A stretch of DNA of 64,000 nt from contig CAJXNL010000003.1 of NCBI GenBank assembly GCA_913057195.1, forward strand, positions 62,001-126,000. Direction: 5' to 3'. The notes under the pieces were generated by a model that had not been told where the DNA came from, did no database searches, and saw nothing but the letters and a program-made list of their open reading frames with translations. The first letter of the stretch is position 1; each line of letters opens with the position of its first letter. The stretch comes from an uncultured Wenzhouxiangella sp. (lineage in GTDB: Bacteria > Pseudomonadota > Gammaproteobacteria > Xanthomonadales > Wenzhouxiangellaceae). The position numbers were made by a program, and so were the translations under genes. Shown in pieces: positions 47,158 to 51,439 of the stretch.

Positions 47158-48492
47158 TTAGGAGCCTGCGGGGATGACCAAAACCGCACCGGGGCGAATC
47201 AAGTCGCCGTCGATGTTGTTCGTTTGTCGCAGCTCATTCAAGCTGACTTGGTGGCGCTGGGCAATCAGGCCCAGGGTGTCGCCATTTTGGACCACATACT
47301 CCTGGCTGGAGCGGTTGGCCGCATACCAGCTGCCCTGCGGCGCGGTCTTAATGAAGTGCCGGTGCACCCCCTGGGCGATGGCCTCGGCGACCTGATCACG
47401 GTGCTTGGCGGTATTGAGTTTTTTCTCATCTTGCGGATTGCTGATGAACCCCACTTCAATCAACACGCTGGGGACATCCGGTGAGCGAAGGACAACAAAG
47501 TTGGCGCTTTCAACGCGCTTGCGGTGGCGTCGGCCCACGCGACCGAGCTGATTTAACAACTGCTCAGCAGCATGCTGGCTGTAATCCATGGTGACACTTT
47601 GCGACAAATCCAACAGCACCGAGCTTAAGACTTCATCGCCCCGGTCAAGCCGAACCCCGCCGATCAAGTCCGCCTCATTCTCATTTTGAGCCAGCATGCG
47701 GGCCGCCTCACTGGAAGCGCCACGCCTCGACAACACATAGACCGAGCTGCCGCGAACACGAAAGTCACGAAACGCATCGGCATGAATCGACACAAACAAA
47801 TCGGCTCTGGCCTGGCGGGCACGCTGATAGCGTTCTTTCAGTGGAATGAAATAGTCGTCGGTGCGAAGCAACACACCACGAACGCCCGGCATCTGATCGA
47901 GCTTGTTTTTCAAGGCTCGGGCGATTGCCAACACCACGGTTTTTTCATAGGTCCCGCTGGGACCGATGGCGCCGGGGTCTTCACCGCCGTGGCCGGCGTC
48001 AATGGCCACGATCATGTCCCGCTCCCCACTGGTCATCGCACGCGTCGCCTCGCGCACACGCTCGGCCGCGGGAACAACGTCGTCGGGCACGAGATCAATC
48101 ACCAAGCGGTGGCCATATTTGCCCGCCGGTGGCAGTAAGAAGCTCTGCGGCTGGGCGCGTTGATGGAGATCCAACACCACCCGAAGATCATTCCCGGCTC
48201 GGATGCCATGGCGAACCCCTCGGACCACGCCGCTGCGCTCAGCGTCGAGTTTGAGGTTTTGTCTAAGCTGGGTGTCTTCCAGATCAATCACCACCCGCGC
48301 AGGGTCATCAAGCTCGATCAGGCGGTGCTCGACCGCGTCATCTAAATCCAACACCACCCGGGTGCCGTCTGGACCGGCCCACACTCGCAGGTTTTCGACC
48401 ACCTCTGCCCACGCGTTCATCCCTCCGCTGCCCAAAAGGATCACAGCAAGCAGCGAACGTTGGACGATCACGGATGGCCTAAAACAAAGCAT
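47158..48492 (-). CDS. amiB: N-acetylmuramoyl-L-alanine amidase, AmiB/AmiC type, with LysM
   Basis: A periplasmic zinc amidase that cleaves septal peptidoglycan during cell separation. The 444-residue protein has a signal peptide ending near AWAEV and an AMIN domain (about 30-135) that targets the septum. The Amidase_3 domain (about 160-385) carries the zinc ligands in IDAGHGGEDPGA, EKTVVL, SIHADAFRD and LIEVGFISN. A C-terminal LysM (YVVQNGDTLGLIAQRHQVSL) ends the chain. Enzymes of this type are switched on by NlpD or EnvC. An NlpD-type gene lies immediately upstream on the same strand. Confidence 0.94.
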   Translation of the reverse strand: MLCFRPSVIVQRSLLAVILLGSGGMNAWAEVVENLRVWAGPDGTRVVLDLDDAVEHRLIELDDPARVVIDLEDTQLRQNLKLDAERSGVVRGVRHGIRAGNDLRVVLDLHQRAQPQSFLLPPAGKYGHRLVIDLVPDDVVPAAERVREATRAMTSGERDMIVAIDAGHGGEDPGAIGPSGTYEKTVVLAIARALKNKLDQMPGVRGVLLRTDDYFIPLKERYQRARQARADLFVSIHADAFRDFRVRGSSVYVLSRRGASSEAARMLAQNENEADLIGGVRLDRGDEVLSSVLLDLSQSVTMDYSQHAAEQLLNQLGRVGRRHRKRVESANFVVLRSPDVPSVLIEVGFISNPQDEKKLNTAKHRDQVAEAIAQGVHRHFIKTAPQGSWYAANRSSQEYVVQNGDTLGLIAQRHQVSLNELRQTNNIDGDLIRPGAVLVIPAGS

Positions 48493-48623: not shown

Positions 48624-49988
48624 TTAATTCACGGGCGGCAGGTACGCGCGGGGATCCACGGCGGTGCCATCCTTTCGGACCTCGAAATGGAGCTGCCAAT
48701 CGCCATCGATGTTTTGTCCGATCTCTGCAATCGGGGCCCCTGCTTCAACGCGCATGCCTTCATCGACCAAGCGCTTTGAGTTGTAGCCATACGCTGACAG
48801 CAATTGATCGGAGTGCTTGATGATCAGCAGCTCGCCATAGCCAATGAGCGCTGTGCCACTGTAAACCACTTCGCCCGCCGCACTGGCCACGATGACATCG
48901 CCGCGCTCGCCATTAATGCCCAAACCTTGGCGAGAGGCGCCGGGATTGAATGGCCTGGCCACCGGGCCGTTCAATGGCCATCGCCAATCAATGCCGGCCA
49001 CCTGGCGCGTGCTCACATCCGTGCTTGTCCGCGGTGCGCGAACGGTGGCGACCGGTTGTTTAACCGCCGGGGTTTCTGGGGCAGATGATTCGCGCCTGGC
49101 CGTTGGGGGTGGCGATATGGCGCGGGTCTCAGGCAGCGCCCGAGTGGTGGTTCTTGTTGGGCGCTGACGGACCGCTGAGCGAGGTCCGACCGGCCGTCGA
49201 AGTCGAATTGAGTCGCCGGTTTGGATGGTATACGGCGGCTCGATGTCATTCCAACGGGCCACATCGCGCCAATCCAGCCCGAACCGAAAGGCGATCGAGT
49301 ACAGCGTGTCGTTCGCGCGCACCGCGTATGTGGCCGGCGCGATCCCCACCGGCGCAGCGGTGAGCCCTGAGCGGTGCTCCACCGGGGCCGGTGTCGTTGC
49401 ACGACACCCCGCCAGCAGCACCACCGCGAGGATCACCGCAACCACCACCACGGCCCATCCAATCCGATCAACCCAAGTTCGCAGGTGCTCTGCCGCCCTC
49501 GCGCCACCGGCATAAATGATCCCTGCAACCAGATAAAAGCGCGCGCCGCGACCGACAACGCAGCCGACAACAAAACCCAGCCACGGCATGGCCAATGCCC
49601 CAGCAGCGACCGTGATGAGCTTAAATGGGATGGGCGAAAAGCCCGCCAAGATCACAAACCAAATTCCAAAGCGGTTGAAGGCATCCACCGCTGAGGCGTA
49701 AGCGTCTGCGTAGCCGGCGCGCTCGATGATGGGCAGCACAAGCTCCAAGGCCCAAAAGCCCAAAAGATAGCCGACCAATCCACCCAGCACGGAGGCCAAG
49801 GTGGTCACCAGCGCCAGCCGCCACGCTTTGGCTCGATTGGCCAACACCATGGGGGCCAGCATGACATCGGGCGGAATGGGGAAAAATATCGCCTCGATGG
49901 TGGTGACCACGATCAGGTAAGTTTGCGCCTTGGGGTGCTGAGCCCACAACAGCACACGGTCATACATCGCGCTGAAAATTGAACCCAC
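48624..49988 (-). CDS. Fusion of a YqaA/DedA-family membrane protein with NlpD-type amidase activator
   Basis: A 454-residue protein encoded by one uninterrupted frame. Residues 1-195 are a YqaA/VTT-type membrane domain (IEAIFFPIPPDVMLAPMV, GFSPIPFKLITVAAG, GRGARFYLVAGI). Residues 219-264 are a LysM domain (YAVRANDTLYSIAFRFGL), 265-330 a Pro/Thr/Arg-rich linker, and 333-451 a LytM domain resembling E. coli NlpD (GYGELLIIKHSDQLLSAY, LHFEVR). The zinc ligands are degenerate, as in NlpD, so it should activate an amidase and not cut itself. The last helix (about 177-194) ends LLAGC195, a lipobox. In relatives yqaA and nlpD are separate. GTG 49988 directly follows the pcm stop; ATG 49967 is an alternative. 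Confidence 0.85.
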   Translation of the reverse strand: MGSIFSAMYDRVLLWAQHPKAQTYLIVVTTIEAIFFPIPPDVMLAPMVLANRAKAWRLALVTTLASVLGGLVGYLLGFWALELVLPIIERAGYADAYASAVDAFNRFGIWFVILAGFSPIPFKLITVAAGALAMPWLGFVVGCVVGRGARFYLVAGIIYAGGARAAEHLRTWVDRIGWAVVVVAVILAVVLLAGCRATTPAPVEHRSGLTAAPVGIAPATYAVRANDTLYSIAFRFGLDWRDVARWNDIEPPYTIQTGDSIRLRRPVGPRSAVRQRPTRTTTRALPETRAISPPPTARRESSAPETPAVKQPVATVRAPRTSTDVSTRQVAGIDWRWPLNGPVARPFNPGASRQGLGINGERGDVIVASAAGEVVYSGTALIGYGELLIIKHSDQLLSAYGYNSKRLVDEGMRVEAGAPIAEIGQNIDGDWQLHFEVRKDGTAVDPRAYLPPVN

Positions 49989-50657
49989 TTAGGCGACTCC
50001 CTCCAGCAAGGGCACAAAACTCACCTCGCCCAACACACGGCGCTGCCACTGCCCGCCGGATCGGGTGATGCACACCAACTCCTGGTGGTCATTCACCTGC
50101 TCAGGGGCCACCAATACCCCGCCCTCAGCCAGCTGATCAAACAACACCTCGGGCAAGGCCCCACCCGCTGTGACCACAATGGCATCAAACGGCGCTTGAG
50201 CCGGCCAGCCACCCAATCCGTCTTGGTGACGCGCCCAGATGTTGTGCAGCCCCGCCCGATGGAAGCGCTGCTTGGCCAAGCGGCACAGCTCGCCAATGCG
50301 CTCGGTGGTGAAGACTTTCTGGGCCACGTGTGCCAATACCGCCGCTTGATACCCAGAGCCTGTGCCAATTTCTAAGACCTTGTTGAGATGACCCGCGGCG
50401 CAAGCCGCCTCAGTCATCAGCGCGACGATGTAGGGCTGGGAGATGGTTTGCCCGCGACCAATGGGCAAGGCAGAGTTCTCATAGGCACGCGACGACAGCG
50501 CCTCATCCACAAAGGCGTGTCTGGGCACCGACGCCATCGCCTCCAATACATGCTCATTTTGAATGCCCTGGGCACGCAGCCGATCGATCAGCCGAGCTCG
50601 GGTGGTGTCGGATGTCATGCCACTGCCCGCAGACGGTGTCATGGATGGGGCAGTCAT
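49989..50657 (-). CDS. pcm: Protein-L-isoaspartate O-methyltransferase
   Basis: Pcm methylates isoaspartyl residues in aged proteins so that they can be repaired. The 222-residue protein contains the SAM motif VLEIGTGSGYQAAVLA and the pre-motif ENSALPIGRGQTISQPYIVALM. The family N-terminus (TSDTTRARLIDRLR) suggests that ATG 50618 may be the true start. The surE-pcm order is conserved. Its stop codon abuts the next gene. Confidence 0.94.
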   Translation of the reverse strand: MTAPSMTPSAGSGMTSDTTRARLIDRLRAQGIQNEHVLEAMASVPRHAFVDEALSSRAYENSALPIGRGQTISQPYIVALMTEAACAAGHLNKVLEIGTGSGYQAAVLAHVAQKVFTTERIGELCRLAKQRFHRAGLHNIWARHQDGLGGWPAQAPFDAIVVTAGGALPEVLFDQLAEGGVLVAPEQVNDHQELVCITRSGGQWQRRVLGEVSFVPLLEGVA

Positions 50658-50662
50658 CCCAC

Positions 50663-51439
50663 TCAGCCCAGCTCAGAGACCGCGTTGAGACTTTCCACCC
50701 AGCCGCTGATTTGGTCCAGGGCTTGATAGCGGGTCAAGTCCACATGAATCGGGGTCACCGACACGAACCGCTGCCGGATGGCATTGAAGTCAGTCCCGGG
50801 GCCATTGTCCTGTTCGCCACCGGGTGGACCCACCCAAAAAAACTGGCGCCCTCTGGGGTCTTGGACCGGGATCACATCCTCAGACCGGTGTCGATGACCC
50901 AAGCGAGTGGTCTCGAAACCTTGAATCTCAGCCCACGGAACGTCGGGCACATTGACATTTAAAATCGTATCGGCCGGCAGGGGCTCTGATTCAAGCTGTC
51001 GCATCAATATGCCGGCCGCTTTCGCTGCCGTGTCATAGTGAGAGGGGCCCTCAGGCCCGTAGACGAGCGACACCGCCATCGCGGGCAAGCCCAAAAACCG
51101 ACCCTCCATCGCGGCCGCGACCGTTCCCGAGTAAAGCACATCATCGCCCATGTTCGCGCCGGCGTTGATGCCCGAAATCACCATGTCAGGCTCGTCGTCA
51201 AGCAACCCTGTTATGGCAATGTGCACGCAGTCAGTGGGGGTGCCAAACACCTTGTACCGCCCATCGTCTAGGGTCGCCACACGAATGGGCTGATCGAGCG
51301 TCAGCGAGTTGCTCGCCCCCGAGCGGTCTCGATCAGGGGCCACCACGGTGACCTGGTCGCAGTGCTGGCTGATTTCATCGGCCAGCATACGAATGCCGCG
51401 CGCGTAGAGACCATCGTCGTTGGAAATGAGAATGTGCAT
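50663..51439 (-). CDS. surE: 5'/3'-nucleotidase SurE
   Basis: A metal-dependent phosphatase of nucleoside monophosphates, 258 residues. The N-terminal metal site ILISNDDG and the loop [19 protein letters not shown] are intact. SurE is linked to survival in stationary phase and to pcm, which follows after five bases. It starts 73 bases from the divergent smrB gene, with a candidate shared promoter between them. Confidence 0.95.

Follow-up and report, generated by a model that had tools for sequence, protein, structure and literature searches.

A 64,000-nucleotide stretch of DNA from an uncultured Wenzhouxiangella species (the window) contains a reading frame in which a YqaA-like membrane protein runs directly into a protein resembling the lipoprotein NlpD. 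This raises the question of whether two genes have truly been merged and, if they have, how one chain could serve as both an inner-membrane YqaA and an outer-membrane NlpD.

One reading frame with two sets of domains

The initial annotation described a single 454-codon frame with YqaA-like, LysM and degenerate LytM domains. Its coordinates were right and three Pfam domains were recovered (Table 1); the strand, which had been left unstated, is minus, and the frame reads from 49988 to 48624, beginning with GTG. This start codon lies directly behind the pcm stop codon, with 0 shared bases, and its Shine-Dalgarno pairing (-9.8 kcal/mol) is matched by no codon position within the gene. The gene order is surE-pcm-[fusion]-amidase-mutL, with 131 bases between the fusion and the amidase gene, and it agrees with the order surE-pcm-(yqaA)-nlpD. 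The mutL gene was assigned by eye from its sequence. From its place beside mutL, as in the E. coli gene order, the amidase is presumably of the AmiB type.

Table 1. Features of the fused gene and its neighbors, in window positions
Feature	Position	Strand	Basis or remark
Fused reading frame, YqaA-like VTT + NlpD-like LysM/degenerate LytM, 454 aa	48624..49988	minus	ORF and domain calls; same architecture in G007
Shine-Dalgarno GGAGGG upstream of GTG start	49999..50004	minus	inside end of pcm
YqaA-like moiety, residues 1-194	49407..49988	minus	ends of 31 unfused YqaA (192-198, mode 194)
VTT domain PF09335, residues 40-159	49512..49871	minus	Pfam, E 2.3e-10, 41.5 bits, cut-off 33.9
Last YqaA helix, residues ~176-194, apparently doubling as signal-peptide h-region	49407..49463	minus	hydropathy and alignment
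Lipobox L192-A-G-C195 (G007: L-T-G-C), predicted signal peptidase II site between 194 and 195	49404..49415	minus	sequence comparison
LysM domain PF01476, residues 221-263	49200..49328	minus	Pfam, above cut-off
Degenerate LytM, Peptidase_M23 PF01551, residues 353-446	48651..48932	minus	Pfam, above cut-off; zinc ligands H, D and first H of HxH replaced
Context: amidase, AMIN + Amidase_3 + LysM, candidate partner of NlpD part	47158..48492	minus	domain calls; same neighbor in G007
Context: pcm	49989..50657	minus	family match
Context: surE	50663..51439	minus	family match

A second species with the same fusion

A second species of the genus (G007) carries these three domains together in a 457-aa frame that has no stop codon, is 67% identical to the frame of the window genome (G000), and lies in the same gene order. 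Its VTT domain scores 47.9 bits, and thus both proteins pass the cut-off of the DedA/VTT family. In both, LysM is followed by LytM/M23 in one chain, which is the domain order of NlpD. The Shine-Dalgarno value of the G007 start is -8.4, which is equalled at 3.1% of its codon positions.

In a tree built on SurE, Pcm, YqaA and NlpD from 14 genomes, G000 and G007 form one clade (100% support), and G020 is placed next to them (72% support). G020 has separate genes, with the nlpD ATG lying 10 bases past the yqaA stop codon and the same amidase and mutL genes behind. The simplest reading is that a single fusion event would have occurred in the common ancestor of G000 and G007. Separate genes in the same lineage, which the initial annotation had named as grounds for rejecting the fusion, do occur, but only outside this two-species clade, and both of its members are fused.

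Both genomes are multi-contig drafts, a circumstance in which an assembly or sequencing artefact might have erased a stop codon. However, the G007 copy comes from a separate genome, is only 67% identical, and has the same junction with no stop, so a lost stop or a frameshift is very unlikely. The synonymous divergence between the two is also too high for them to be one sequence. We therefore regard an artefact as scarcely conceivable, and the initial annotation's concern about an assembly error is answered by the independent genome. Over residues 3-176, dN is 0.19 versus a dS of 1.6, indicating strong constraint on the YqaA half; because synonymous sites are near saturation at this dS, the fusion appears to be long-lived. 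The second re-entrant segment of the YqaA half is 93% identical between the two species, and residues 178-191, the helix before the lipobox, are only 43% identical.

Affiliation of the two parts

The YqaA part shares with the COG1238/YqaA subfamily a VTT domain with two proline-containing segments where the re-entrant loops would lie. Passages of Todor et al. (2023, PMC10127716) give 99% of COG1238 proteins as single-domain. The E. coli YqaA (L076) differs in that it has 142 aa, ends before the last helix, and is only 23% identical to the YqaA part of the fusion. A profile built here matches it in a one-sequence search with 28.5 bits (E 5.8e-11), and BLASTP with E. coli YqaA gives 23% identity and E 0.03 for G000, and E 5.9e-05 for G007. 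Other DedA proteins have reportedly been linked to Tat export of amidases (Sikdar and Doerrler 2010).

Compared with L001, an M23 protein of the same genome, the LytM domain retains just one of four zinc ligands (H is replaced by R, D by G, and the first H of HxH by Q). This loss is as expected of an activator, and the NlpD part may accordingly be read as a putative amidase activator. It shares with E. coli NlpD (L077, NP_417222.1) LysM and degenerate LytM domains, a lipobox, and a location downstream of pcm, and is 38% identical to it over 259 aligned columns. E. coli NlpD differs in having its own short signal peptide, no membrane domain, and rpoS behind it. The protein scores 150.3 bits against the NCBIfam NlpD equivalog PRK10871.1 (NF008123; cut-off 311) and 162.5 bits against ActS (cut-off 375); because it is below the NlpD cut-off, we call it NlpD-like and not an equivalog. 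None of the three other M23 proteins of G000 resembles NlpD, which leaves the fusion as the sole NlpD-like gene found in this genome. In L001 (578 aa), M23 is accompanied by Csd3_N2 and an OapA-type LysM, and the zinc ligands are intact. L002 (294 aa) matches only M23, as does L004 (389 aa) above the cut-off, where one further family match is sub-threshold.

Behind nlpD in G000, G007, G020 and G026 is the amidase gene, not rpoS. None of the five genus genomes tested (these four and G019) has an RpoS over the TIGR02394 cut-off; each has two or three lower-scoring genes of the sigma-70 family.

The junction

In unfused congeners, YqaA ends in a helix of the type GWxxxxxAxxxLxWWLW followed by a stop codon, and NlpD opens with its own signal peptide, which ends, for example, in LLTAC-APWQP. 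At the junction, the fused chain reads VDRIGWAVVVVAVILAVVLLAGC-RATTPAPV in G000 and VDRIGWAVVGLALVVALLWLTGC-ASTTPAPV in G007. The comparison with congeners implies that the helix at the junction is that of YqaA, and that the lipobox and everything downstream are those of NlpD. A deletion removed the yqaA stop codon, the n-region of NlpD and most of its hydrophobic stretch. The initial annotation proposed that two genes had merged and that the final helix of one had replaced the signal peptide of the other, and the separate neighboring genes of relatives support this proposal.

The boundary itself needs a small correction. The YqaA part had been given as residues 1-195, one residue too many: the stretch derived from YqaA runs to about 191-194, and C195 is the predicted lipid-attachment cysteine of NlpD. 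Among all distinct sequences up to L073, 31 unfused YqaA proteins end at positions 192-198 in window numbering, which can be shifted by indels (194 in 12, 195 in 10, 193 in 4, 192 in 2, 197 in 2 and 198 in 1). In 12 further loci (L082-L093), YqaA ends at 190-202, with the stop itself at 191-203. Within the last 30 residues, a cysteine occurs in only 1 of the 31 unfused YqaA, and at another place than C195.

The predicted lipobox ending at C195 (LLAGC) holds up under comparison, with LTGC in G007. In each fused protein the cysteine follows a hydrophobic stretch, as in lipoproteins. The pattern [LVI][ASTVI][GAS]C has eight matches within the 68 ORFs of at least 180 aa in the window (23,366 residues, spurious ORFs included), and LAGC195 is preceded by the most hydrophobic stretch of them all (15-residue mean 3.35, next 1.71). 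A loose lipobox pattern fits 38 of 39 NlpD N-termini, the two fused ones included; the exception, L026, reads HAC. The mature N-terminus C-x4-PAPV-x2-RS is common to the fused chain and the unfused L008 and L009, and C-x3-7-PAPV is present in 21 of the 39. Because the lipobox lies 194 residues into the chain and there is no N-terminal signal peptide, the fusion is not filed as an ordinary lipoprotein. A second lipobox-like sequence, VVGC, ends at C143, within a hydrophobic segment that comes earlier in the window protein; the G007 protein lacks this cysteine.

Distribution

Of 30 genomes surveyed in the genus, 25 have a match at 1e-20; the other five, which are 63-84% complete, do not. The matched genomes comprise 2 with the fusion, 11 with separate yqaA and nlpD, 10 with nlpD only, 1 with yqaA only (G022, at a contig end) and 1 with nlpD fragments (G013). 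At all ten nlpD-only loci (L014, L016, L019, L020, L021 and L047-L051), pcm is directly upstream of nlpD in the order surE-pcm-nlpD, and no YqaA match at 1e-20 was found elsewhere in these ten genomes, several of which are drafts. One genus thus exhibits three states of yqaA and nlpD: separate, fused and missing. With yqaA gone from the operon of 10 of 25 genomes, the gene cannot be essential to every member of the genus.

These absences, and the small size of the genome (1.78 Mb), are what might be expected if the fusion were a neutral consequence of the operon becoming more compact while the genome shrinks and YqaA is being lost. We give this explanation little credence, since the YqaA half is under the strong constraint noted above. 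It concerns the origin of the fusion and is compatible with cleavage of the product.

Wider surveys used strict cut-offs (1e-55, 1e-50, 1e-62 and 1e-70) on overlapping samples, and those of the order, class and phylum were samples of larger groups. The fusion was seen in 2 of 61 relatives, among the matches listed, and in 2 of 250 genomes sampled in the order. It was seen only in the window's own genome among 229 genomes sampled in the class and 249 sampled in the phylum, and in 0 of 47 genomes of another order. No fusion outside the two species was seen in these wider samples of the order, class, phylum and another order, and no relatives were found among viral contigs. With cut-offs and samples of this kind, the surveys might have overlooked a fusion whose linker is long and diverged.

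Orientation of the last helix

The LysM and LytM domains would be outside the cell membrane only if the last helix of YqaA runs outward. Mean charges over 33 YqaA sequences (K+R versus D+E) are 4.2/1.4 at the N-terminus, 2.2/0.5 at residues 50-57 and 1.6/3.4 at residues 84-108, which fits an N-terminus inside and a central loop outside. Averaged over the family, the loop preceding the last helix carries no net charge (2.8/2.8), so the orientation of this helix depends on the re-entrant-loop model. In the window protein, this loop has three arginines and one histidine versus one glutamate and one aspartate. Passages of PMC7818093 predict two re-entrant loops for the family. If both PxP segments are such loops, then two core helices and one further helix would put the C-terminus outside. 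According to passages of Todor et al. (2023, PMC10127716), the orientation of the termini varies across the DedA family and is conserved within each subfamily. An AlphaFold model from three sequences had a mean pLDDT of 46.9, too poor to judge topology, and the predicted structure had no fold match at E 0.001, the best being LysM domains at E 0.085.

Fate of the fused chain

The fusion is probably a natural two-protein precursor that signal peptidase II splits, and not a tether to the inner membrane. A single message would be translated from the GTG codon, and its first 194 residues would form a complete YqaA-like membrane protein. The last YqaA helix would run from the cytoplasm to the outside like a lipoprotein signal peptide, and end in the lipobox. 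Lgt would then add a diacylglyceryl group to C195, and signal peptidase II (LspA) would cut before it, leaving YqaA of native length in the inner membrane and releasing a mature NlpD-type lipoprotein for the Lol system to carry to the outer membrane. There, LysM may bind the septal wall and the degenerate LytM domain may activate an amidase, perhaps the one encoded by the neighboring gene. In its fuller form, the proposal is that an entire polytopic membrane protein serves a lipoprotein as its cleavable signal peptide, and that the cut separates an inner-membrane, VTT-family protein (putatively lipid-transporting) from an outer-membrane amidase activator in a fixed one-to-one ratio; we find this somewhat likely.

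Several observations favor a precursor that is cut. LspA is encoded in G000, and Lgt in G000, G007, G020 and G026. The lipobox is kept in both fused genes, although the helix before it is so poorly conserved, and the residue after the cysteine is R in G000 and A in G007, not aspartate. In passages of PMC5533458, aspartate at this position is the signal used for inner-membrane retention. Because C195 falls where unfused YqaA stops, a cut before it would restore both a YqaA of native length and a native mature NlpD. At 67% identity, however, there would be a chance of about 45% that the G and C were both identical in the two species, and their retention could reflect shared ancestry.

Alternatively, the chain might stay whole, with the last helix of YqaA permanently anchoring a LysM-LytM arm that works from the inner membrane, like E. 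coli EnvC. Both species have one open chain, and the roughly 140-155 residues between C195 and LytM, LysM included, could reach the wall. A tether needs just one outward helix, which would also explain the loss of NlpD's own hydrophobic stretch. However, the lipobox is kept in both species with the junction exactly there, and LspA should act on a lipobox located at the outer end of a helix running outward. Moreover, NlpD of E. coli has to reach the outer membrane: a form that is retained in the inner membrane does not rescue chaining, and a soluble periplasmic form does so only partly (passages of PMC5533458). A permanent tether should therefore be harmful, and we consider it unlikely. Were the chain uncut, this NlpD would be active at the inner membrane, contrary to what is seen in E. 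coli. Only cutting, or a second start codon, would supply both YqaA in the inner membrane and NlpD in the outer.

A second start is improbable. In this case the full fusion would be accompanied by an NlpD translated from just before the helix. The initial annotation had pointed to internal GTG codons before the lipobox, and these are present with fair ribosome-binding sites: in-frame GTG codons occur at residues 180-190 of G000, with a site energy of -6.0 at 180-182 versus a gene mean of -3.1. But they leave no positive n-region, which makes the option weak, and G000 has no ATG, GTG or TTG from 141 to 179. In-frame starts in G007 at 144, 153, 154 and 169 would keep a charged n-region, but their sites are weak (-1.9 to -2.6), and TTG169 is CTG in G000. 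Several unfused relatives have possible nlpD starts that overlap the end of yqaA.

Precedents and implications

No literature naming both NlpD and YqaA was found in open-licence PubMed Central. Among the titles listed from the same collection, none on NlpD and DedA concerned a fusion, and none on signal peptidase II, internal signal peptides or lipoboxes described such a case. The initial annotation's view that the architecture is undescribed is consistent with this absence and with the predominance of single-domain COG1238 proteins (in passages of PMC10127716).

The nearest known precedent is the fbcH cytochrome b/c1 precursor of Bradyrhizobium, in which a polytopic membrane protein is fused to a secreted one and cut at the internal signal peptide of the latter. 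That case involves a type I site with a signal peptide of its own, whereas the fusion described here has a lipobox and one shared helix. In OpuA and GlnPQ, substrate-binding domains that are often lipoproteins are fused behind the membrane domain of an ABC permease and stay tethered; the fusion to a membrane domain is alike, but here the lipobox is kept.

If the precursor is cut, lipoprotein maturation acts on a signal peptide at the end of a 194-residue membrane protein, and such signal peptides would be missed by prediction that is limited to N-termini. The shared helix also suggests a simple evolutionary route by which neighboring genes for a membrane protein and a lipoprotein may merge with neither product lost.

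Apparent fusions elsewhere

The search for the same architecture found it in one further species, and the look-alikes checked elsewhere turned out to be two genes. G039 and G050 appeared fused by open-frame length and have a stop between the two genes. Each of nine matches spanning query residues 3-4 to 450-452 (L065-L073) contains a stop in frame as well as a separate signal peptide, and so does each of three matches from another order (L080, L081 and L066, which is already among the nine). In twelve look-alikes (L082-L093) that run past the junction, or whose NlpD begins before it, the YqaA stop precedes nlpD in every case. Shorter matches extending a few residues past the junction (for example, G419, G312, G337 and G341) each have a stop counted inside. 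L025, from a Methylophaga MAG, is unfused, with a YqaA of 191 aa and then a stop. YqaA-containing frames of 825-836 aa in another family (G049 and G058) probably reflect chance lengthening of the frame in GC-rich DNA; at L045 (2828-5305) and L046 (651-3161), YqaA is near the C-terminal end of open frames of this length.

In L065-L073, L080 and L081, several distant families have yqaA and nlpD in the same frame, parted by a stop and a few codons. Loss of the stop in such families would place two helices in a row and thereby leave NlpD on the wrong side of the membrane.
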